In this document: positions 50,173 through 64,000 of the stretch, one piece after another | How positions within the stretch are numbered: position 1 is the stretch's first letter | Layout of the letters: every line of letters begins with the position of its first letter | Assembly: GCA_025174535.1 (NCBI GenBank) | Contig: JALBUN010000045.1 | Location: forward strand, 3,455,666-3,519,665 | Direction: 5' to 3' | Length of the DNA stretch: 64,000 nt | DNA from: Cantharellus purpuraceus | Lineage: Eukaryota > Basidiomycota > Agaricomycetes > Cantharellales > Hydnaceae | Translations under genes and position numbers: made by a program | Notes under the pieces: model-generated | What the model was told of the DNA's origin: nothing | What the model saw: the letters and a program-made list of their open reading frames with translations, nothing else | Databases searched by the model: none

Positions 50173-50335
50173 GGGTTAAAGAGGGGTGCAAAGGTCGGCT
50201 AGGTCGGTCAAAAAAATAGGTAGGGCTGGGCTAGGCTGGGCTAGGATGGATGGGCTGGGCTGGATGGACTGGGATGGGATGGGCTGGGCTGGGTTGGATG
50301 GGCTGGGATGGGATGGGCTGGGATGGGATGGACAA
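50173..50335 (-). repeat. GGGCTGGGATGG minisatellite, inverted relative to 23.7 kb
   Basis: GGGCTGGGCTAGG and GGATGGGATGG units run over 50,220-50,332. They are preceded by 45 non-repetitive bases (GTTAAAGAGGGGTGCAAAGG...), the reverse complement of 23,906-23,951. The repeat and its unique edge have been copied together. Confidence 0.8.
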
Positions 50336-50507
50336 AGAGAAGAAGAATCGTGATGGAGGGGAAAGCGGGATCAGCAAATTTAACACGAGTATGAGGGCGG
50401 AAGCGATAGGAAAGAGGACAAGAAAGCGATACAGTTTTCGAACTTTGACGGGTGAGTATATTTCTGTGAAGGCAGACACTTTAAATCTTGAATCTAAAAA
50501 TGTACAG

Positions 50508-51575
50508 TCAGTCGATAGGATATTTCTGAAACATATTTAACTGCTTGCCCTTGATCCCAACGACTGCGAGAGTTTTAAGCAAAGACTCCATACCCCTGCG
50601 TGCATGGTCGTCTGGGACGATAGCTTCCGGGTCATTGAGACTGTCATTGAATATCTCAAGACACCAAGGTCCGTTGTATCCTGTGTCGCGAACGGCCTCT
50701 GCAAACTCCTTGACTGGTAAATATGCCCCCCTCGTGGTCTCAAGAGGGAATAGCCGATACGAACGCGACCATGGACGCAATAGAGGAACTGCAGGATCCT
50801 CGGGAGGCGTCAAAGGCGTCGACATGCGCTGCCCATCGGCAAGCTGAAAGTAAAATATCTTGCTGGCAGGGACCATTACAACGAGATCGCCAAGACTGGT
50901 ATGGAGTACGTCATTTACCGAAGGGTGGAGTATTCCGGAGGAACTATATGGATCGGCCCATTCACGCGCGGCAGTGTTAAAGGAATCAAGACATAGACCG
51001 AGATTGGGACGATCGGCAAGCTCGACGACTTCCCAGGCGGCTTTCCAAGTATTGACGTGAGTACCCCAGGAGAGAGCCTCATAGCAAATGCGCAAGGGAG
51101 GTGAGAAAGTGGCAGCATAATCCGCCAGTGTGGCCAGATCTGCCGCCATGCGAGTTGGGCTTGAGTCGACTCGAGAGGATGGGAGAGTAGTCGAAGGGAT
51201 GAGAAGCATGGATGTTCCGAGAACGGGAAGAATTGAAAGAGTACCACGAGCGTGACGCATACGCTCTGCGGCTTCCTCCAGATTCCTTCGACCCTCAAAC
51301 TCGCGAAATGGCTGAAGGCACAACAGGCGGAGGTTGAGGGAGGCACACATGCTGTTAATGGCATGCGCAGCGCGAATGGAGGTGTCGTCTCCATCGATAG
51401 TAGAAAGTGGGAGGTTGTTCAACTTTGCGTACTGACATTTAAAATGCTCCCAATCAGTATCAAAGAGATCAACGGCGGTAAAACCTGCGCGTGCAGCAGC
51501 TTGGAGTTTTGAAAGAAGAGAGTGGTGTTCGCAGGAGCCAAGGGAGAGTGTAGAGATGCCGAGTTGAGGAAGCAT
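50508..51575 (-). CDS. 3-dehydroshikimate dehydratase (TIM-barrel, quinate catabolism)
   Basis: An intact single-exon ORF of 355 codons with the xylose-isomerase/AP-endonuclease-2-like TIM-barrel layout of fungal 3-dehydroshikimate dehydratase (EC 4.2.1.118), which converts 3-dehydroshikimate to protocatechuate. The four expected metal ligands are visible: Glu166 (ICYEALSWG), Asp197 (LGLCLDSFN), Gln244 (FYFQLADG) and Glu307 (WCLEIFN). The N-terminal LGISTLSLGSCEHHSLLSKL and the conserved ALSWGTHVNTWKAAWEVV also fit. It is expected to be cytosolic. No other quinate-pathway gene is nearby. The start at 51,575 gives the family's usual N-terminus. Confidence 0.85.
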   Translation of the reverse strand: MLPQLGISTLSLGSCEHHSLLSKLQAAARAGFTAVDLFDTDWEHFKCQYAKLNNLPLSTIDGDDTSIRAAHAINSMCASLNLRLLCLQPFREFEGRRNLEEAAERMRHARGTLSILPVLGTSMLLIPSTTLPSSRVDSSPTRMAADLATLADYAATFSPPLRICYEALSWGTHVNTWKAAWEVVELADRPNLGLCLDSFNTAAREWADPYSSSGILHPSVNDVLHTSLGDLVVMVPASKIFYFQLADGQRMSTPLTPPEDPAVPLLRPWSRSYRLFPLETTRGAYLPVKEFAEAVRDTGYNGPWCLEIFNDSLNDPEAIVPDDHARRGMESLLKTLAVVGIKGKQLNMFQKYPID

Positions 51576-52745
51576 GGCTGAAAATACAGAAAATGGCTAC
51601 AGTCTGGAAGGAGGGCGAGTTGCAGGGACTGAAAGCACAGAAGATGGCTACAGTTTGGAAGGGAGGGCGAGTCACAGCAGCTTGAAAGTAATAAGGAAAA
51701 TGTCAAGACATGATCCGACCCGAATATGCCAGAGGGAGAGGAAAGGAGCATGTCCAAGCCAAAGACAACTGCAGTAAAAATTTCTCTGTAGACAGTGTGG
51801 GCGTCAAACGCCGAAGCAGCAGGCGCAGGGCTGATCTCTACTGCAAAACGGGCGGTAAGACTTACCTTTTCATTTCCCATACCTGTTTTGGGTTTGTATA
51901 ATATACCCTTGTCTTTACCCCACTTCGAGTTTTGCATATGATGCACTTCGACACCTAGCATAACATGGCCATCGTCCTCCCTTCATCAGCTCACCTCCAC
52001 CAAAGACCGTTGGCCAAAAATACAGTACAGGCACTTGACCACATATGGCGCACATCAATCAGTTTGGGTGACATACAACCCGTACAGTGTTTACCCACAG
52101 CTGAGCCACCATGATCAACGAACGTTCGGGCTGTATCTATCGTGAGAACCGTCACAGTTTGATAAAGCCGATGGCACCGCCCACCATGACTGTAGAGTGT
52201 TCCCCTCAAGGCATCGTGCATCAGAGGCCATCTCTGCACTCTCTTCTGGTACTCCCGATGTCTGGCGCATCCACAGAAAGACTGTCTCGATCCGTCCCTG
52301 GCCATTCGCCTGCCTGTGGCGATGTTGCCAATCTGTCACGCTATGAACCTATCCCTGTGTCCTTCCCTCCAAATCCCTGTTACCCACATATGTGGACAAT
52401 CAGTGCCAAAATACTCACGTCTTTTTTTGCGACTCTATTCAATAAACTGAGGCAGGCTCAGATCACCTCGAATCGAGATCTCAAGACGTCGATCTAAACA
52501 GGATTGGCATTCCAACCTACGTAAATCACCAACGCCTTTGTGACTCTGTCAGATAGGCGGCCTTATCCAAACGGCTCGTACTCCATCAATCAAACCAGGC
52601 CAAGCTGTAACTACATCATTTACTCCTACGCAAGCAAATTAATCAAATATGCACAGAACAAACCTGGCACCCCCGGGATACCGCAGTTTGTGTGCGACAC
52701 ATCAGCGTACTCTTGAGTCCAACTACCGCACGACTCATCCTCCTC
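51576..52745. other. Upstream/intergenic region
   Basis: It contains two imperfect copies of a roughly 50-base direct repeat (ATGGCTACAGT.TGGAAGG.GGGCGAGT at 51,591-51,622 and 51,642-51,673), just upstream of the dehydratase start. No gene was recognised in 51,700-52,745. Confidence 0.5.
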
Positions 52746-53656
52746 TCAACGCCGTCTGTCTGTCCTGAATTTGGGATATGTCAGCACCAAACGTCGACCA
52801 TCCATTGATGCTTTGACATTCTCAACCTGCAGTAGAACCTGTGTTAGCAGCAAGTTGAGATGGGTTTTGAGATTTGAACCGGCCTTTGTCCCTTCTGGTA
52901 ACGGTAGGGTCCTGACGTACTGCTTCTCCTTCCGCTCACGAACGAGTCGGTCGCCCTCCATCCTCTCATCAGTGGTGACGCTCTCCCACGAAATAACTAT
53001 TTTGTCGCTTTGAAAACTGACATGCACATCGGATTTCTTGATTCCGGGCAATTCAAATGTTGCCGTCACCACTTTCCCATCGGACGAATCTCGAAAGGTG
53101 ACTCTGTTCCTAAATCGTCAGCATCTATCAACGTTATCACAACTCTCAAGTCACAATACACGTACTTCGACTTATTTTTCTTCGCTCTTGGTGATTTTGT
53201 CGACTCGAGTGGTGAGAGCGGGGGTGGAGAAGAAGCGGACGGTCCTGAACTCGAGGCATCATTGGACGTCGATGTCGAATTCGATCCAGATCCCTCAAGT
53301 ACGCGATTCGGCCGCTTCATCGTCCGGGACTTGGTCACCGTACTTCTCCTGGTACTATGCAGGCCCTCATTCCATATTCTATCAAAAGGATCATCGATAT
53401 CTTGGTCATCCGGTCCAGAAAAGCCAAGACTCTCGTTCGAGTACCGGAAAGCGGGAGTGTTAGAGGCATATGGCGTAGCCCCTGCGTGTGCGTATGGATG
53501 AGGTTCAGCATAGCGCGGCGGTAAAGGATACTGGATGTCGGGGGACAAAGGGCGCGTTTTACTTCGGGAGAACGCCTCGTTGAATAATCGATCCAAAGCG
53601 TCCCAAGCACGAAAGGGAGAACCTCTCATATTATCAGAGATTTTGGTGTTGCTCAT
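52746..53656 (-). CDS. Small heat-shock protein (Hsp20/alpha-crystallin)
   Basis: Minus-strand gene. Exon 1 (53,656-53,166) starts MSNTKISDNMRG and has an amphipathic AWDALDRLFNEAFSRS stretch and a disordered Ser/Pro middle. An intron (53,165-53,110, GT...AG) joins in phase to exon 2, which holds the alpha-crystallin domain: VTFRDSSDGKVVTATFELPG, KKSDVHVSFQSDKIVISW, then the conserved ...QYVRTLPLPEGTK and, after a 57-base in-frame stretch at 52,883-52,827, VENVKASMDGRRLVLTYPK. The N-terminal part is long for the family. An ATG 26 codons upstream (53,734) is in frame, but the 53,656 start fits better. Chaperone of misfolded proteins; cytosolic. Confidence 0.85.
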
Positions 53657-53744
53657 TAGGTCACAAGGAAGTGATGGCAAGACAGTGAAGGATGAGACAA
53701 GATAGAAACGGGCGAGAAAGCAAAGCTGGGTCAAGGGTCCGCAT

Positions 53745-53765
53745 GGGGGCCTTTATATAGCATAG
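53745..53765 (-). promoter_or_regulatory. TATA box of the Hsp20 gene
   Basis: GCTATATAAAGGC on the minus strand about 100 bases upstream of the start codon at 53,656. Heat-shock elements were looked for, but only weak TTCnnGAn-like matches are present. Confidence 0.5.
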
Positions 53766-54969
53766 TTTCTGGAGATCCAGATCATAAGGTTTACCTGAGG
53801 ATTAAGACCGAGTGAGGGGTAAGTCCATGATGTGTAGCCGCAGCTCAGACGCGACAGGGCCTTGTACGCATGGAACATGCACTTTCTTGTCCTCAGAATT
53901 CGCTGGAAAGTCACCCGACTCTTCTAGAGGCTGCGGGGATCAAAAATTCCTCAGATCGGCTTCCTCATCTTACCTATCTACTGGGAGAAAACCACTAAAC
54001 TACAGGGCGGAAGCCATGAGGCTAGGGGGAGGCCACCCTTGCAGTGCTTCTGTGAGTACAGTATTGGGCACAATGGGTCAATGTTTCGCAATCGTATGCA
54101 TCGAGAGGGTCGGAAATGACTCTAAAGTTAGCAAGTAGAGCTCTGGGTGTTCACATGAAGGTCGACCGTACAGCGGAGCTGCAAGTGTGTTCGCGCCTAT
54201 TCAGACAAGTTTTCGTTCTGTGTTTCCATTTACATGTCGCGAGCCAGATCGATATCCATCCGACCTTCTCTTCCTACAATCTATCCCCGGGTCTTCACGC
54301 TGAAAGCGCAAAGTCTGCTCATGTCAACGGTGTGGGTGAGTCGTCTACTCGTGCCTGCTTTGTTCCATGATGCGCCCATAGTATGGGCCATCCATTAAGC
54401 ATGTTAGACTGCCAATGACTCTCCAGTCTTTGCGGATATTCCCTTTTGGATCTGAGAGACATCATTTTACTCCCCTTCTATGCTTTGTATGCTAAAGACA
54501 TTCCTCACCCAGAGATGTCACTCATCCCGATCTTTCCCCCGCACCATTCCAGATTACCATTATATGGATCACAGATGATACTCATTTCCCCGTATCGTTC
54601 GAGAAGACCCCCCTGCAGAGGATGGATTTTGTTCATTCATATCACAATCTCGTCACAATCTCGAATTACAAAGCATTCCAGGTATCTAATTAATCTCAAG
54701 CATGTAGGTTCACTGTTGTCCAACCCTCGATAACCTATCTAGTTAAGAGCCGTTTTTATCTCTACCAGTTGCGTACTCAATTACATTTTAAGGTCTTGCC
54801 AACGATACCACTGTGATTCCGTCGTGTAAACTTTGCAGTAGTACATAACTGAACAAAAGAGCAAGGGCATGTATATATTTTACCAAGATATAGCAACACA
54901 AAAATAATACAATCTTAGCAAGGCAGGGGCTCTTGGGAAATGACCGGACTGGCGTCCACATATCCCATT
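53766..54969. other. Intergenic, nothing recognised
   Basis: Short ORFs on both strands without motifs, up to the stop of the carboxypeptidase gene. Confidence 0.5.
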
Positions 54970-57098
54970 TTACATCTCTTCCTTGGCTAACCAACGCTTC
55001 AGAAGCACCAGAGCCTCCGCCGGCTTATCATGCGGAACCATATGTCCTGCTCCTTCGACCGAGGCAAAAGTCAATCCCTCCGCAGCCCGAGTGAGACCGA
55101 CTCTCTTGCCATCGATACTCCATTCGCGGAGCTCCTGTGAGGCGAACTTGCTTTGTCCCGACCATTCCATGGCAAGCGTAAAGCGTTCGTTGGCGACCTG
55201 AAGTATATTCTCTATCAGTGTCCCACCAGCATTTGGGTGTACAAGGGACCCACCCAGTTGCAAATCCAGTCATACGTCCCAGCGTAGACAAGCACGCGGA
55301 CTCCACGCTCTAGCAATTCGGCGACGTAGATTTGGGTCTGGTGGGTATATTCGTCCATGTTCTGGTTGAATAAGAATGAAACCTTGGAAGAGCAAGCCGT
55401 AAAGTTTCCAACGGAAGGATCAACGCCGAGTATCGCGCGCGTCGCTGGGGTGTTCATGTAATTGACAATGTCGCTATAGACGTGTGGATAGGTTAGCTAG
55501 GGCAGGAAATGAGATAAAAGAGATTCACGCCACGGCGGGATAGCAGAGCGACTGCTGAAGTTCACCCAGACAGTCTTTCGAAACATCATACGGATTTTTG
55601 CCTGATAGATGTGAACATCAATACATAACCAAACGAAAGCATTCTCACCAGACGTCAGGAATGGAATCGAAATCTCAGAGTCACAGAATAACAGGGCACC
55701 ATTGCAATTCATTGCATCAAATTCGTCGACGCAAGACTCTTGCATCATACGTTGGCATCGAGGGAGCTAGTAATTGGAAAATCGTAGGCGGTCGTCAAAG
55801 TCATGTGTGCACCGCTCTTACCGCTTTTTTCATCCGAACACATGTCGAAATGTCTTGGAATGGTGCTATGCTAGCACCTGTGCACTGCACATCGTAGTAT
55901 GAGAGGAGTGTACTGCGCGCAGGGGTTAGATGGGTATCCCAGACCAACTGCATCTGCAAGTGCACTAACCGAGCGAAATCCGTGATCCCATTTCCTACCC
56001 CGAAGTCTCAAAATTTTCCAAATTTGAATAGAGGAAACGCACCAATCATGATCGAAACCAGATTGATAGGGGTAGCTCCGGCTGCGACTGCCTCCTTATT
56101 TTCATCATATACTTGTGCAGCGAAGACAGGGACATAGCGACCCTAGAAGTATGTCAGTAATACCTTCTGGTGAGTTCGAACCTAACCCACCCCATAGGAC
56201 TCGCCAGCGATATGGAATGCCCGACCTTTGAACTCGGTGAAGGTATCGAAAAAGATCCTAACGAATGCAGCGATATCCTTGGCTGCGTCTTCTGTAGTTC
56301 CCTGAATTTGCGCAGTGTTGGGACGTGGTAAATTTGTACGTATGAAAACACCTACAACACTTTGCCCATACTCAGCGTAACTCCAGCCAACACCAACTGG
56401 TTGATCGATGAGGATGATATTTGCGTTTGTATTCCAGGAGTAAGGATTAAATGTTGTGCTGTTGGCATCCTTAATTGTACAGGGACCTGCATACGTCATG
56501 ATGAGGAGGATGCAGGCTGCTAGCATTCCAGGCTCAAGATCATACCGAGTTCCATTAGGAGACCAAGGGATGAGGAACAGCCAGGACCTGATCACATCAT
56601 ATACCCGCAAAATCAAGTTGAGTCTCTGGGCTCATACCTCCATTAGTCCATAGTAATAAATCATCAGTCTTTGGATCATTCCTGCTTTCAAAGAAATAAA
56701 AGAACTATCCATGCCATTAGCTCAGGGATGGATACCCATGCTAGAACCAGATAATACCAAATGACGGGCTTGGAAATTCACGTAGCCTGTGTATGATCTG
56801 TGCGAAATCAGGAAATGGGAACATTTGGTGCTGGGCATACGACACACCTGACAGTGTCATCGCAAAAACCGGCAGTGTTCTGCTTGATGCGAACGCTATG
56901 GTGTGGGTAGGCTGGATGGACAAGTGTGGTATATTCAGCCGCAGAGAGAGCAGCCAGATCCTCGATGGGAGAGATCAATCCAGAATCATACCCAGCGAAC
57001 TTGGAGATATAGGCATTTGAATTGGAAAGAAAGGGCTGCTGAACAGCAGCAACTTGCAGCAGACGTGCGGCAAGAAAGACGCTACTCGACACCAACAT
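54970..57098 (-). CDS. Serine carboxypeptidase (S10, carboxypeptidase Y type)
   Basis: Minus-strand gene with about ten exons. A signal peptide (MLVSSSVFLAARLLQVAAV) starts at 57,098; an in-frame ATG ten codons upstream is less typical. It continues through NAYISKFAGYDSGLISPIED, TGYVNFQARHL, FFYFFESRNDPKTDDLLLW, NGGPGCSS (joined across an intron near 56,600), LIDQPVGVGWSY, and the catalytic serine in GESYG near 56,195. Then come RYVPVFAAQVYDENK near 56,120, MNTPATRAILGV near 55,455, the catalytic aspartate in VYAGTYDWICNWVG near 55,285, and the catalytic histidine in GAGHMVPHDKP near 55,030. It ends at 54,970. All three catalytic residues and the oxyanion NGGPG motif are present. The enzyme removes C-terminal residues from peptides in vacuole or secreted fluid. 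Every junction I checked is in phase. Confidence 0.85.
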
Positions 57099-58252
57099 GG
57101 CTTGTGAAATGCGAGTAGCCAATAGCAAACTCTATGAACTTTATTCTCACGTTCGGCACTGGTAAGCGGCCCAGCAACATAGAGTAACTAGTATTTAGAC
57201 AGTCACAATCAAGTTCGTATTCTTTAAATGGCCCTGCATCAAAAACTAACCAGACGTCGTCGAAACCCAACGACAACGGAGCCATACATGACTCCACTAC
57301 CCTTTACGGGGCACGCACACTTCCCCATCCCCCCATGCCTATACACGTCACACAAAATATAAATACTTAACCACATATGTACATATACATGGGTAGTCCG
57401 ACATAGGCCATAAATGGCCTAGAGCGACTATAATGGAACTTATCTATCTAATGGCCCTGCATACGTTGATATTACTACTTCTACGATCCTAAGTACTCAT
57501 CTCGAATTTCATCTAGTACCGGAGTTGTGGTTGTTCAGGAATTACTGCAACTTACAGTTGTTCGGATGTAAACACAGATCGGAATAATTGTGTGGAGAAC
57601 CTGTTGGACGTGGGGGATATGGTGATCAAGCGTCTTCGACTTGTGGCTGAGATGCTATCACGTGACTGAAAATACTTAGTTGTCTATGCATCCAACCTAA
57701 ATTGGCCTATTCTCCTCTATCATCCCAACTTCGTTATGAAGGGTGTTTTGATCAAAGAGATGCACGTGGTCTTTTATGACAGAACGGTACGCTGAAACCA
57801 GGTGAGTTTACGGGCTCTATACTACCCCACGTACTGACTTTATGTTCTCAGGCTTGCTGCCACGAACGTGTATGGCTGCCCTTGGTATTATGTTATATTA
57901 TGTTATGCTGGAGCCAGAGCTCTCGACGGCTGGAGCTCGACGCACATCTTACAGCTTGATCTCGTGTCCTTCGTGGAAGATTCTATGAGCAAGAGTTTGC
58001 GTTAGGTAGTGCCGGTCGCGGGTATCTGTATGTGGCCGGATATGTAATTTCCGCCAGCCCTGTAGACTGTACACTACCCACTACCTGGACTGATGCTGCA
58101 CATATTAACACGTGCATGCGAACCCAATAGACTTTCGCTTCGCCATTGCCGGGTGGCGCATGTGACGACTGGTATTTATGTAAGAGTATAGTGGCGGGCC
58201 GCCACTGTAGCTGAAGCCTGAGAATATACTGTAGATATCGATAACTTAGACG
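57099..58252. other. Intergenic between divergent genes
   Basis: No gene recognised. A TATTATGTTATATTATGTTATG direct repeat is near 57,890-57,907. The region should hold the promoters of the carboxypeptidase (minus) and the fusion gene (plus). Confidence 0.5.
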
Positions 58253-60664
58253 ATGCCCTCCTCCTCCGACACGACGTCTGCTTTCTTCTATGGGACCCTC
58301 CTTCACCCAGAAGTCATTAAAAGGGTCATTGGCAATACTGGTGACCATTTGCAAGTCGCACCTGCTATTCTTCTAGATTTCACTCGACACCATGTCAAAG
58401 TATGCCTATCCCATTCGACTGCTCTGGAAGTTGAGCTTGAGCTGTTTACTTGTTGTGACAGGGATGTGACTATCCAGCTATTGTCCCATATGAATCCGCA
58501 AAGTCTTTCTTCAAGCGTGAGTTGACACAGGACGAAAGGTCCGTAAGAGGTACCATCGTCGCCGGTCTCACCACCGAAGATGTCAGGCTCGTTGATGTTT
58601 TCGAAGGCGATGTACCGCTCTTTCCATTTGTCACGTCAATATAAGCCTTATTCATCACAACTTGTAGGAATATTCACGCCAAACAGTTTCGGCCTCGCCA
58701 CTGGCATCATTCACGCCCCTATTAGATTCGGCGGTTCAAACCATTATATCCCCAGAGACATCTTTACCTCAGTTGAAGGACTTTACCCAGGTTCAGACAT
58801 ATGTTTGGAGCGACCGCCTGGAACGTCTTACCCCCGAGATATGGTCGTTCGATGTCTTCGTTCGGGAGAAGCTTTGGCGGTGGGTCGGACGAGGCAGCAC
58901 CGACAATTCCGACTATGCCCTTGTTGATGAACGTAGAGCCTTGGATGGGAATGTCAAAGATTCACGTTCGACTTTCTCCCATGAGGTCAACCAACCGCCA
59001 GAGTTTGGTCGTGCTCTTTTATCCCAGTTTGCGTTTCATGCGGACTATATCAACTTGAATCACGGTATGCACGTCTAACAGTGTCGTGTGAGGTGTCCGT
59101 TTAGTATCGATCATAGGTTCTTACGGATCTCTACCTCGACCAGTCTCTGGAGTAGTAGAAGCACTATCGGCCGAGGTCGAGTCTCGTCCAGACAAGTTTA
59201 TCCGCAGGGTGTACGCTAATCGTTTAGCGGCTGCACGAGAACGTCTGGCGCACCTCGTCGGCGCAGAAACAGACGAGATTGTTATGGTCCCGAATGCCAC
59301 TCACGGTATAAACACCGTTTTACGGAACCTCGTTTGGAATCCAGATGATGTCATCGTTGGCGGTGGGTTTGTTTCCAGATGGCTAGTTCATTCGATCTCA
59401 TTTAGAGGTCAGCGACTACTACGTATGGCGCCATCCTGCGCACACAGCAGTACATTCACGACCTTCTACCTCACCCCAAGATCTCCAACATGATACTCAC
59501 GTTCCCTACAACCCATGCTGTCATTCTCGACGATTTTAGAGCACATCTCCAAGCTATAACTCGCAAGCCACATCAAAAAGTAGTAGCTATCATTGATGCC
59601 ATCGTTAGCAACCCAGGATGTGTACTGCCATGGGAGAAGATGGTTCAAATTTGCCGGGAGGAAAATGTACTGAGTCTTGTCGATGCCGCTCACAGCATTG
59701 GGCAGCAAGTTGGCGTCAATCTGAGCAAAACCTCTCCTGATTTCTGGGTTTCGGTTAGTCACCATTGTCGGTTACACCAGCTGGATGTTAATGCATGTTA
59801 CATCCAGAACTGTCACAAATGGTTGTATGCAAAACGCGGCTGCGCGGTTCTATATGTACCGTGTCGGTATGGTCACATTTGTTTCTTGTGACCCGTTGTT
59901 CTGAGTTTCTATTGAAGGAATCAACACTTTATTCGTTCGTCAATCCCGACCTCATTTCAATATGTATCCCCAGAGGATCCCGAATCACCGCATACCCCCA
60001 AAGCACCGAATTTCGTCGCTCAATTTAATTGTGCTCCATTTATCACATATGTTGACATCCAATTAACAATCTGTCCCAGGGTCGGGAACGATCGATTGCG
60101 TCCCGTTCCTCAGTGTGATGGCAGGTAAGTTTAGTCACAATGTTGACGGTCACTCTGGCCTTGCTGATTCGTGACAGCTCTTGACTTCAGAGCGAAACTT
60201 GGAGGCGAGGCGCATATCAATGAGTATTGCCACGCTCTCGCCATGAGAGGCGGGAAGCGTTTGGCGCAACTACTTCAGACAAATATGATGCCTGAGGAGC
60301 TCACGGCAAACATGGTTGGTGCATCGTTGTGACTTGATCATCGCAGTTTGACCACAGCGAGAACAGACCAATGTCGTCCTTCCTCTTCCTATCCCAGCCT
60401 CGTTTCCTGCTCACAAGCTCGCAGAGATGCGTACCATGATGGAAACGAAACTATTGGAAGAGTGGGACTGCTTCGCAGCAGTATTTGTTCACGACGGCAA
60501 ATGGTGGACGCGCTGCAGCGCACAAGTGTTCAACCAAGTGAGTTTGCACAAAAGATTGGTGGTATATTGGACGGGTAACACTGTGACAGTTGTCGGATTT
60601 CGACCATGTTGCAAAGGCGCTGAGTGCCATTTGTGCTGAAATGAAAAGAGAATTTGATGTTTAA
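58253..60664 (+). CDS. Gamma-glutamylcyclotransferase fused to a class V PLP-dependent enzyme
   Basis: Eleven exons (58,253-58,399; 58,462-58,611; 58,668-59,064; 59,117-59,362; 59,413-59,753; 59,808-59,860; 59,918-60,030; 60,080-60,124; 60,178-60,314; 60,367-60,537; 60,590-60,664) join in consistent phase to 624 codons. Residues 1-185 are an AIG2/GGCT fold: FFYGTLLHPEVI (residues 11-22), GCDYPAIVPY, and VDVFEGDEY with the candidate catalytic Glu97. GGCTs release 5-oxoproline from gamma-glutamyl compounds. From about residue 225 a class V aminotransferase-like domain begins: YINLNHGSYGSLPRP, NATHGIN, VSLVDAAHSIG-type (Asp404, His407) and the PLP lysine in NCHKWLYAKRG (Lys431), to FDV at the stop. 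It is closest in style to isopenicillin-N-epimerase/cysteine-desulfurase-like fungal enzymes. Exon 3 alone spans the end of GGCT and the start of the PLP domain. No stop was found in either half. Confidence 0.85.
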
Positions 60665-60770
60665 AGGACAACCAATGTAGTCTGATACTTACAGATCTGA
60701 TCTGCAATTCACGCCTACAGTAGCACATATGTACGCACACCCGTTACTCTCTTCAAACTCCGATCACACG

Positions 60771-61657
60771 ATGGAGAATGCAAATGCTGCTGCCGTCGAG
60801 GTTGATGTGCTACCAACGTCAAATTCTCAGCCTCATGAAATGCGAGTTACAGACCATGGAAAGATCAATTCCTTTGTCACTTTCGCCCTTAAGTTTCTGC
60901 AGGTGAGCCCTATTGCTTGATTATCATCTTTCAACTTCAGTTTCAAAGGACACATGAAGGAAAACCCTCAACGTCCCCTAGTACTTCATACACTCCCCCG
61001 ATCCAAGGACCAACCTGTTCCAAAGCAAAACGCGAGTGTACAACCGCAGGACGCGCCTCAACCCGAGCGTGACACAAACGCCGTGGAAGACGCGTCGGTT
61101 GACGAACCTGCCAAAAAGAAGCCAAAAACTGCCAGATCGACTGCCACCATCCCAAGGCTCGTCAGTGTTGTCGAGATCATCAAACGAGAGTATGCCAAAG
61201 AAGTAGCTACGCGACAAGCTACAAACGGCGGACCACTCAATGCCTCTGCGAGACTAGGGTTGCACCAGTACAACGAGCTTTCCACGTTGGAAGACTTGGG
61301 TACCGCGGAAGAGCAGGAGAACGCGCTAGGCGACGCGGAACAACTGCGGCAAGCTTTGGAAGGAAAGAGCTTGTGCGCCTCTCAAATCATATTCCTGGAC
61401 ATACACTAATTCTGGTACACAGCTTGAAGCAGAAACATACACCACATCTCAAGGTGACCCTGAGTGTGAGCGTTCAACCGATGCTAGAAGAAAGAGGAGC
61501 AACGTAGGTGTCTTTATATTACTGCTGTCCAAATCTTATGCTGTTGTTGTTCTACAGTCACCAACCTCCACCACTTATTAAGAAGTCCAAGTCTGCTAAA
61601 ACTAGGGAAAGGAAGCGACAGAAAAGAAAGGAGGCTGGGAAAGTAGTGGCGGCGTAA
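60771..61657 (+). CDS. Alba-like nucleic-acid-binding protein
   Basis: Exon 1 (60,771-60,902) is MENANAAAVEVDVLP...ending DHGKINSFVTFALKFLQ. An intron to 60,959 leads to ENPQRPLVLHTLPRSK, then a Lys/Pro-rich insert, TIPRLVSVVEIIKREYAKE and GLHQYNELSTLED. A further intron leads to KQKHTPHLKVTLSVSVQP, and a last exon carries a highly basic tail (KKSKSAKTRERKRQKRKEAG) ending TAA at 61,655-61,657. The order helix (KINSFVTFALKFL), strand, helix (VVEIIKREY), strand and final strand pair matches the Alba fold of small RNA/DNA-binding proteins, including RNase P/MRP-type subunits. The insert is long for the family. Phases fit at all introns. Only about 105 bases separate it from the fusion gene in the same orientation. 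Confidence 0.6.
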
Positions 61658-64000
61658 TCAATTGTAACTCAGATAGACGCCTTTTCCTGCATTGGTTTAC
61701 ACGACCTTGAGCTCATTGTCCACAACAGCGAGTATAACGCCCTCATCGCCATCTTCGTCCTATCCTTCGTCTCTGAGCGTCGACGCCGTGACTGAGGTCA
61801 ACATAGATTAATTTACGTGGAGCACTGCGGAGCCGACGACTTGTCATCTATAGATCCGTATCCAGTTGCCCAAAGCGATGCGTATGAATCGCAACCTGCC
61901 CGCCTGTAAGCCCTCCTCGCCCTTTCCGTCTCCCGTGCCTAGTCTAGTCCTTCACTTATATTCACCTCATAGCCCCGCCACAGCCTGCTGCCTCATCAGC
62001 AGAAATCCTTGCTCTCCGAACGAATTGGAAATGGGCATATTTAAGTCACTTTCTCTTTACCTACAACCCTGTTCTTCACCTTGAAGACATCCAGCTTTCT
62101 GTGAGTTTTCTACTGTCATGTTTCTGCGCGTGAAAACGCGCACAAGCACGCCACAATCGCGTCAGATATTATCCTAACACATGCCGCAGGAGCTCGAGGC
62201 CGATCTAGCTTCCGGGACATTCGATGTGATCCCCACCGTCATACAACGTCTCCTCATGAGTCTTACGCCACACGACAAGCGGATGATGTTGGTTCACTTC
62301 ATGTTCATGTTCAGTGGCAGCATTTGACGCCTTCGGTTCTTAGTCTTGAGAATTGGCAGCAACAGCTTCGCAAACAGTCTCTCAAGCGTGATCCAGATCA
62401 CAATCTTATGGGTTCGGAGGACAACCCGGCTGATTTTGCATCCTTAATAATGAGCGACAAACTTGATCTCTTCCACGCTCTTTGTGAGTGGCAATTTCAT
62501 AACCCCAACAACTTGAGAGCTAGGATGAGAGATGACGACGAGTATGCCAACTGGGTACATAAATCTCTCCTTTGATAACATGCTACGTTTTCACTCGCCA
62601 TTCAGCGTATGGAGCCCATTGCATACGATGCTAAGAGTAATGCTTACTGGTTAATGGGCGGTGAGCAATTGGAGTCGCACGTTTGTGTCTCATTCCACAT
62701 ACTCATGGCTTGCAGGCAATCGTCTTTGGATACAGCACGCCCCTCCCCGTAAGCAAACCGCAAAGTCGCATAAACGTAAACAACCGGCCACGGCCTCCAC
62801 GAACGGCCGTAAGTCAGCGAAGCGGAGGCAGCCCGCAACCATCTCTTCCTCTACAGCCGTCGCTGCAGCCTCTGCCACAAATGCTAAACCTAAAGCCCCG
62901 GCCTTGAGCACCACCGGGAGACCAATCCGTGAAACCCGTTCACGCACCCAGCAGACTGGATCCTCGACAGAGAGAAAGTCGAGGGCAATGGGAACAAGGG
63001 TGAGTTCACGGCTCAGGGGCCGGGTAGAGGAAGACATTTGGCAACCTATTCCAGAGGAGTGGTTGAAGGAGGGAAAGCCTGACGGTGACGACGAAAACCA
63101 AGCGGATTGCATGGGTACTGTCATGCAAGCCGAGATGGAGAACACACTAAAATCTTTGGATGATGTATCCGAGCTCACCAGTCTTAGCGATCTGTCTGAG
63201 CTGCCGGAGGTTCACGAGGAGACCAATGACGAAGAGGATACTTCCGATCCTACGCCGTCGCCTGCACCTGAGCTTTCCTCATCGAGTGATGACGTTTGGG
63301 AAACGGTAGGCTATGTGGCGTAGTACATAATAGGTATGCGTCACTCTGGCGGAATGGGAGCAATTCCCACAGCGGTTTGAGAAGTCCACACACCGCGCTG
63401 AGAAGGCATTTTACAAACTCCTCGTCAATGAACTTGTTCCCGCGATCACAGAGGTCCTTCGGGTAACTATTCAATTATTTCATCATCAAAACACACTTTA
63501 AATACAAACCGTTCGATGCTCAGGTTGATGTGCGTAAGAAGGTTATGGAAGAGGCAGTAGTCCATCGCAAGCGATCTTCGCGTATTGCGGTGAAGGAGAG
63601 CGTACGGGAGGCGGAGCGCGCAGAGGCCAGGCGACGGGCCGAAGAAGAGAAGGAAATGGAACGACATAGACGTTGGGAAGCCCGTGCACGTAAAGAGGAG
63701 GAGGAGCGCGTGAGAAGAGAGAATCTGCGGTCTACGCGCCTCAGGGAGAGAGGCAGAACGGGGAGCGAAAGGTTAGTCTGTAACCCTAAATTCCAGGGAA
63801 TCTTGGGACTGACGCCATTTGCGCTATATTACCAGTGTGGACGTCGATATCATAGGAGGCGAATCTGAGAGCAAACCTGCTGTCATGAATGGAGTCGGAT
63901 CTGGAGGACACGAGCCCATCAACACAACGCCCGTCAAATTTGTCGTTAATGTCTCAAAGAGTGGGACACAAACACCCAAAGACGACGAAGTTTGGGAACT
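61658..64000 (+). CDS. DDT/WHIM-type chromatin factor (CECR2/RSF1-like), partial at window end
   Basis: Plus-strand spliced gene. A proline-rich start near 61,840 leads to LRTNWKWAYLSHFLFTYNP (about 62,010-62,070), ELEADLASGTFDVIPTVIQRLL near 62,190-62,250, and NWQQQLRKQSLKRDPDHNLM at 62,348. Next is a DDT-like block SDKLDLFHALCEWQFHNPNNLRARM (62,450-62,525), then WRMEPIAYDAKSNAYWLMGGNRLWIQ (split by an intron), which matches the WHIM-style R.EP.G.D..GN.YW...NRL motif of CECR2/RSF1-class remodeller subunits. A Lys/Ser/Thr-rich region, an AT-hook-like RETRSR stretch, an acidic tail and a long basic coiled coil (VHRKRSSRIAVKESVREAER..., 63,565-63,760) follow. The gene continues past 64,000. No in-frame ATG was found in the best 5' frame before 61,870, so the start is uncertain. 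Confidence 0.6.

Follow-up and report, generated by a model that had tools for sequence, protein, structure and literature searches.

A gene of Cantharellus purpuraceus that joins a gamma-glutamylcyclotransferase-like domain to an Egt2-type PLP domain

Described routes to ergothioneine

In mycobacteria, EgtB joins hercynine to gamma-glutamylcysteine (gamma-Glu-Cys), EgtC removes the glutamate and EgtE cuts the resulting compound (PMC9103826, PMC10805701), whereas in passages of PMC11089744 and PMC11993508 the fungal synthesis is described as Egt1 plus an Egt2-type lyase, without a glutamyl step. For Neurospora Egt1, PMC9103826 gives a 62-fold preference for cysteine, apparently relative to gamma-Glu-Cys (the paper's numbering of the compound is garbled), so that some gamma-glutamyl product of Egt1 is conceivable; one sentence of the same paper has the Neurospora enzyme using gamma-glutamylcysteine and not cysteine, and is contradicted by its later text. 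In yeast, Grifola Gfegt2 (477 aa) expressed with Gfegt1 raised ergothioneine 57% above Gfegt1 alone, which itself yielded some (PMC7437059), and shiitake Egt1 with Lecsl2 produced a little ergothioneine in vitro from cysteine (PMC11677154). Because Egt1 and an Egt2-type lyase suffice in yeast or in vitro, a gamma-glutamylcyclotransferase (GGCT) is not needed in Grifola or shiitake; yeast's own deglutamylation may have stood in for it in the Grifola experiment. These crown-mushroom Egt2 or C-S lyases, here likened by their description, have no GGCT domain, and the GGCT homologue is a separate gene.

The locus reported here has a GGCT-like and an Egt2-type domain in one protein. The window is a 64,000-nucleotide stretch of the Cantharellus purpuraceus assembly GCA_025174535.1 (contig JALBUN010000045.1, C45 below), and the fused gene lies at 58,253-60,664 on its forward strand. 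The mycobacterial counterparts EgtC and EgtE are two proteins, and EgtC is an Ntn-type amidohydrolase and not a GGCT (PMC9103826). The initial annotation knew of no account of this domain pair, and no published description of a GGCT joined to an Egt2-type PLP domain was found in the openly licensed PMC literature, a scope outside which most subscription papers fall; databases nevertheless contain many fused proteins, labelled generically, for example as 'PLP-dependent transferase'. Both domain families are known, while the pairing, its spread, the identity as an Egt2 orthologue and the later splitting were not found in print within that literature.

The fused gene and its two domains

Splicing of the eleven exons in frame gives a protein of 626 residues followed by a single stop, and the introns are all GT-AG and 49-62 nt long. 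The initial annotation had the eleven in-phase exons right and the length slightly wrong (624 codons), and its residue numbers Glu97, Asp404, His407 and Lys431 are correct in the 626-residue model. Exon 1 (58253..58399) starts the GGCT domain with the YGTL motif (Tyr13, codon 58289-58291), which exon 2 (58462..58611) continues with the candidate catalytic Glu97 (codon 58603-58605) in FEGDEY. Exon 3 (58668..59064) carries the GGCT C-terminus, a linker (about residues 174-209) and the first PLP-domain segment in a single open frame. The Egt2-type PLP domain goes on through exon 4 (59117..59362) and exon 5 (59413..59753), the latter with Tyr318, Asp404 (codon 59682-59684) and His407, to exon 6 (59808..59866), where the SNCHKW motif holds the PLP-binding Lys431 (codon 59817-59819). 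It then fills exons 7 (59918..60030), 8 (60080..60124), 9 (60178..60314) and 10 (60367..60537), the last with Arg594 in WWTRCSAQ; exon 10 has an in-frame alternative start at 60358, and the Ramaria homologue supports 60367. Exon 11 (60590..60664) encodes the C-terminus and a TAA stop. The 3' end of exon 4, and with it intron 4 (59,363-59,412), was placed by comparison with the Ramaria rubella homologue (P0001) and two Gautieria models. A 629-residue version with 9 nt more at this intron was rejected, its three surplus residues being absent from both genera; this version was the query in the Pfam, NCBIfam, solved-structure, homologue and genome-wide protein searches.

The first domain corresponds to Pfam GGACT (PF06094, GGCT/AIG2-like; residues 11-108 of the 629-residue model, 34.8 bits against a cut-off of 22.8). 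Conservation was counted over 38 of 44 GGCT-bearing rows, not all from different species, after exclusion of five truncated models and one protein that lacks the PLP domain (P0121). Glu97 is kept in all 38 aligned fused rows, the window protein included, as are Gly, Thr and Leu of the YGTL motif, and Tyr13 is kept in 36 and replaced by Phe in two. Among solved structures, the plant AIG2-like protein 2jqv has a weak similarity to residues 6-108 of the 629-residue model (E 1.7e-6), and it aligns with the YG motif and the FEG glutamate of separate GGCT homologues. The model of a separate Rickenella GGCT (pLDDT 88.2, pTM 0.85) matches the folds of plant AIG2-like proteins (2jqv, 2g0q; E 5e-8 to 7e-7), the yeast glutathione-specific cyclotransferase 5hwi (7e-6) and human GGACT (6e-4), all weakly (TM 0.4-0.65) and at a distance from which the substrate class is not readable. 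With a PF06094 domain here and a separate homologue of GGCT fold, the fold differs from that of the Ntn amidohydrolase EgtC.

The second domain matches Pfam Aminotran_5 (PF00266, class V PLP; residues 267-552 of the 629-residue model, 64.4 bits against a cut-off of 21.5), and its nearest solved relative by sequence is Neurospora crassa Egt2 (5uts; 254 bits, E 2.6e-74), a hercynylcysteine sulfoxide lyase with further structures 5v12 and 5v1x. The alignment with Egt2 spans residues 203-623 of the same model and leaves the GGCT domain without counterpart; the two proteins have in common the PLP lysine, the Tyr of TxYGA and SNCHKW. Tyr318 aligns with the Egt2 tyrosine that reads Phe in 5v12 (Y134F in the title) and is kept in 37 of 38 fused rows. 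Among the fused rows with a letter at the position, Lys431 is kept in 36 of 36, Asp404 in 37 of 37, His407 in 35 of 37 and Arg594 in 35 of 35. Both active sites, with candidate Glu97 and with Lys431, Asp404 and His407, are thus present and conserved in the fused homologues, as first noted. The NCBIfam score for bacterial EgtE (TIGR04343) stayed at 42.5 bits against a cut-off of 400, and those of the desulfurase models at 51.2 against 475.1 for SufS and lower for NifS and IscS. In a Foldseek search with the model of the Ramaria homologue, Egt2 chains were matched down to E 5e-42, LolT at 2.6e-40 and SufS at about 6e-20. The Mannich cyclase LolT (8dl5) has the same fold and PLP core, but its sequence match is weaker (207 against 254 bits for Egt2) and it reads NAPS where the window protein reads NHGS. 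The class of the PLP domain, at first left open between desulfurase, lyase and epimerase, is now placed by sequence and by the fold of the Ramaria homologue: the domain belongs with fungal Egt2 and not with generic desulfurases.

The fusion of the two domains in one protein is confirmed. Exon 3 is free of stops in the coding frame across the junction, as had been claimed, and at the window's own stop frequency the chance of 132 open codons is about 0.003, which by itself is modest evidence. The fusion is accepted because homologues align through the linker and not because of this open frame alone: the Ramaria homologue is 72% identical over 99% of the fused protein with the linker included, and the linker is also aligned through in Hysterangium, Sphaerobolus and others. 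In the AF2 model of the Ramaria homologue (mean pLDDT 92.7, pTM 0.73) both domains are high, and linker residues 191-197 fall below pLDDT 50. Two adjacent genes wrongly joined by annotation or assembly are extremely unlikely: the two genes are separate in crown species, where they at times share a contig, but here the junction lies within a single exon, the linker is aligned, and 37 fused proteins from many assemblies stand among the matches listed. Two of the fused sequences, P0010 (644 aa) and P0035 (604 aa), come from source contigs of 1,983 and 1,923 nt, in which 48 and 108 nt remain beyond the coding length; ten introns would not fit there, and so the two are presumably cDNA. Three further rows of that source, with 521 to 2,449 nt left over, are uninformative on introns. 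The reverse error is seen in Gautieria and Botryobasidium, where one gene is annotated as two models sharing five residues. It had been considered that homologues might always be two separate genes, or that exon 3 might hold an assembly error; fused homologues occur in many genera, and the junction is conserved in other genera.

Distribution and splitting of the fusion among basidiomycetes

The search for the domain pair across basidiomycetes suggested in the initial annotation found that the fusion recurs in many genera, with both domains in 37 of the 120 matches listed, of 990. These include Ramaria, Hysterangium, Sphaerobolus, Clathrus, Rhizoctonia, Ceratobasidium, Tulasnella, Auricularia and another member of the Auriculariales, and Serendipita, as well as Tremella, Kwoniella, Naematelia, Naganishia, Vanrija, Leucosporidium, Rhodosporidiobolus, another Microbotryomycete and Atractiella. 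With the GGCT part of the Ramaria protein as query, 14 of 15 matches were fused. RHTO_04309, described as the Egt2 of Rhodotorula (PMC11089744), might be a fused protein too; if it is, the rise in ergothioneine that the same paper reports from extra RtEGT1 and RtEGT2 would bear on the role of the fusion. Since the GGCT is separate in Tilletia, where the GGCT side was seen, the fusion is not phylum-wide. PLP-only relatives among the matches listed are mostly 49-56% identical to the PLP domain of the window, and the sampled ones cluster on the tree. Some gene models hold other domains: in Bondarzewia mesenterica (P0121) a GGCT stands in one model with a calcineurin-like phosphoesterase, which may be a second GGCT fusion or a prediction error, and the fused pair is accompanied by PF13481 in a Tulasnella protein (P0007) and by PF06201, named PITH in the source, in a Rhizoctonia protein (P0015), both probably run-on predictions.

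A tree of the PLP domain was built by a quick method from 46 rows of the matches listed and rooted with Egt2 and LolT, both without GGCT; P0034, P0042 and P0044 were dropped for want of an anchor, its forks are weak, and 8dl5 and Atractiella have long branches. The first branches comprise the sampled Pucciniomycotina, Tremellomycetes and early Agaricomycetes. The basal branches are nearly all fused, with the separate crown-mushroom genes nested among them. As annotated, the tree has four changes between the fused and separate states, and two after relabelling of Gautieria and Botryobasidium. In Gautieria the GGCT model ends with the MDGRV that starts its PLP model, and in Botryobasidium the two models likewise share MNGVI, so these 'separate' rows look like annotation splits of one fused gene. 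That all separate pairs are mis-split fused genes was rejected: Jaapia, Hydnomerulius, Vararia, Amylostereum and Artomyces have no such overlap. For Gloeophyllum, the GGCT model consists of a fragment of 108 residues. A single gain near the base of the phylum with one or two losses fits the tree, and the number of changes alone is silent on gain against loss. The GGCT tree (52 rows) is broadly compatible and poorly resolved inside the Agaricomycetes; with the annotation taken as given it has six changes, and it places the ascomycete Phyllosticta next to Atractiella. One 'separate' Tulasnella row continues into the PLP domain, and the two such rows may represent fused genes whose models are cut short.

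Among the matches listed (120 of 990 with the fused-protein query, 120 of 322 with the GGCT query), the GGCT and PLP proteins lie on contigs of equal size in 8 of the 27 species with a separate pair, or in 6 of 25 without the two annotation splits, and the same comparison across species gave 0 coincidences in 5,723. The comparison rests on equal sizes and on species-named rows picked by hand, with truncated models and some second copies excluded, and three of the six shared contigs, being 0.77 to 1.56 Mb long, could be shared by chance and carry less weight. In Jaapia the two separate genes bear consecutive gene numbers, and in Hydnomerulius both lie on a contig of 5,166 bases. The history is read as fused, then neighbouring, then dispersed. 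The VDRRR motif of the linker was considered as a scar of fission and rejected, as separate GGCTs, that of Tilletia included, have a similar tail; by a loose pattern it occurs in 49 of the 120 GGCT matches listed.

Possible function of the fused protein

The C. purpuraceus genome also contains the Egt1 parts, methyltransferase and sulfoxide synthase, on contig C49. Exon-by-exon protein searches with window and crown-mushroom queries found no second intact Egt2-like or GGCT gene, within a reach that a very diverged gene could escape, and the fused gene is thus the sole intact Egt2-like gene found beside Egt1. Whole-genome profile searches returned no match for PF06094 and seven places for PF00266; both missed the window gene because its exons are too short, although the protein queries did find it, and Egt2-type protein queries matched at none of the seven places.

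It is proposed here, with a probability of about 0.5, that the fused protein is the basidiomycete Egt2 orthologue with a deblocking domain, which would free the cysteine amine of a presumed gamma-glutamyl substrate for C-S cleavage by the PLP domain. For its aldimine a PLP lyase needs an alpha-amine that is free, and a gamma-glutamyl amide blocks that amine, so by established chemistry the GGCT would have to act before the lyase; the serial logic of the initial annotation, in which the GGCT product may be the substrate of the PLP domain, seems reasonable. The order proposed here (gamma-Glu off, then PLP-dependent C-S cleavage) is that of mycobacterial EgtC and EgtE. Acting on a gamma-Glu-cysteine S-conjugate or the corresponding sulfoxide, the GGCT domain would release the gamma-glutamyl group as 5-oxoproline, the freed amine would form an aldimine with PLP on Lys431, and cleavage of the C-S bond would give pyruvate and ammonia together with a sulfenic acid or thiol. 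Among such substrates the likeliest would be gamma-Glu-hercynylcysteine sulfoxide, made when Egt1 takes gamma-Glu-Cys instead of Cys, with the GGCT in the role of the unrelated EgtC, either in a regular branch or in the clean-up of a side product. As for Egt1, EgtB of M. thermoresistibile has Trp415 and takes gamma-Glu-Cys, and Chloracidobacterium EgtB, with Phe415, also has Egt1-type activity (PMC9103826). The Cantharellus Egt1, its exons joined by eye, has CNFY at the site of RNFF in 8qf6 (named EgtB) and 6qki, which leans towards cysteine use and against a gamma-glutamyl substrate.

The sulfur volatiles of mushrooms, invoked in the initial annotation, remain a possible but not the leading explanation. 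Here gamma-glutamyl precursors like lentinic acid would be deglutamylated by the GGCT domain to S-alk(en)yl-cysteine sulfoxides, which the PLP domain would cleave to sulfenic acids for odour or defence, with ergothioneine made otherwise or as a second job. Lentinic acid is such a precursor and shiitake Lecsl cleaves S-methyl-cysteine sulfoxide (PMC4460571); moreover, Asp404, His407, Asn428, His430 and Lys431 are spaced nearly as the PLP-site residues of Lecsl (Asp225, His228, Asn248, His250 and Lys251; PMC11677154). The odour and ergothioneine ideas overlap, since a resemblance to Egt2 is reported for Lecsl1 and Lecsl2, C-S lyases of shiitake (PMC11677154). However, deglutamylation in shiitake is assigned to GGT, and the exon-by-exon protein searches found no second Egt2-like gene to serve Egt1 instead. 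The fusion also occurs in Tremella, Kwoniella, Naganishia, Rhodosporidiobolus and Rhizoctonia, genera known for yeasts or for an association with plants and not for odorous mushrooms, and a role in odour or defence is on balance unlikely.

Rather unlikely, too, is a supply of cysteine, in which the GGCT would provide Egt1 with cysteine made from gamma-Glu-Cys and the lyase would take the normal product of Egt1, the fusion coupling expression and not substrate. PDB entries with the GGCT fold carry titles that name, among others, gamma-glutamyl, gamma-glutamylamine and glutathione-specific cyclotransferases, and fungal Egt1 is described as using cysteine in passages of PMC11089744 and PMC11993508; the partner expected for such a supply is nevertheless Egt1 and not Egt2, and Egt1 lies on another contig. 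Processing of glutathione conjugates for detoxification or secondary metabolism has a model in gliotoxin, where the GliK cyclotransferase, the GliJ dipeptidase and the GliI C-S lyase act in the same order of reactions, but Pfam finds no dipeptidase domain in the fusion, and its presence in many orders, mostly with one orthologue per listed species, differs from a patchy cluster gene, which makes this role improbable.

The widespread fusion, the one intact locus found and the split pair that sometimes shares a contig are together a Rosetta-stone sign of a missing step, and the fusion hints at a glutamyl step absent from the accepted fungal ergothioneine pathway. More tentatively, early Basidiomycota may have made ergothioneine partly through a gamma-glutamyl branch, in which Egt1 would use gamma-Glu-Cys at a real rate and the fused GGCT enzyme would deglutamylate and cleave the adduct, the fusion being later split and dispersed in crown mushrooms. 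If this branch is true, the textbook contrast between bacteria using gamma-Glu-Cys and fungi using Cys would be wrong for much of a phylum. The fusion also suggests a testable substrate, provides a natural bifunctional catalyst for engineering and may account for transpeptidase-free deglutamylation of mushroom sulfur precursors.

Further copies of parts of the locus were found in the assembly. The window from 50334 to 64000 equals C34:494612-508305 on the opposite strand, with 0 mismatches and one 26-bp gap, and the window's end is the end of contig C45. Since the identity extends over 13.7 kb and runs to the end of C45, a true second gene copy on C34 was rejected, and the two stretches are probably one locus assembled twice. 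Its left edge is a GGGATGG/GGGCTGG tandem array (window 50173-50333), which has relatives on several other contigs, among them some near contig starts (C45:360, C26:22-24 kb, C32:25 kb and C18:26 kb), and is perhaps subtelomeric. On C1, a PLP part (L031, C1:3023142-3023629) and a GGCT part (L032, C1:3822247-3822637) lie about 0.8 Mb apart; they were considered as separate genes and rejected as such, both being decayed pieces of the fused gene. The PLP piece is followed by a stretch that, by eye, seems to resemble the next gene downstream in the window.
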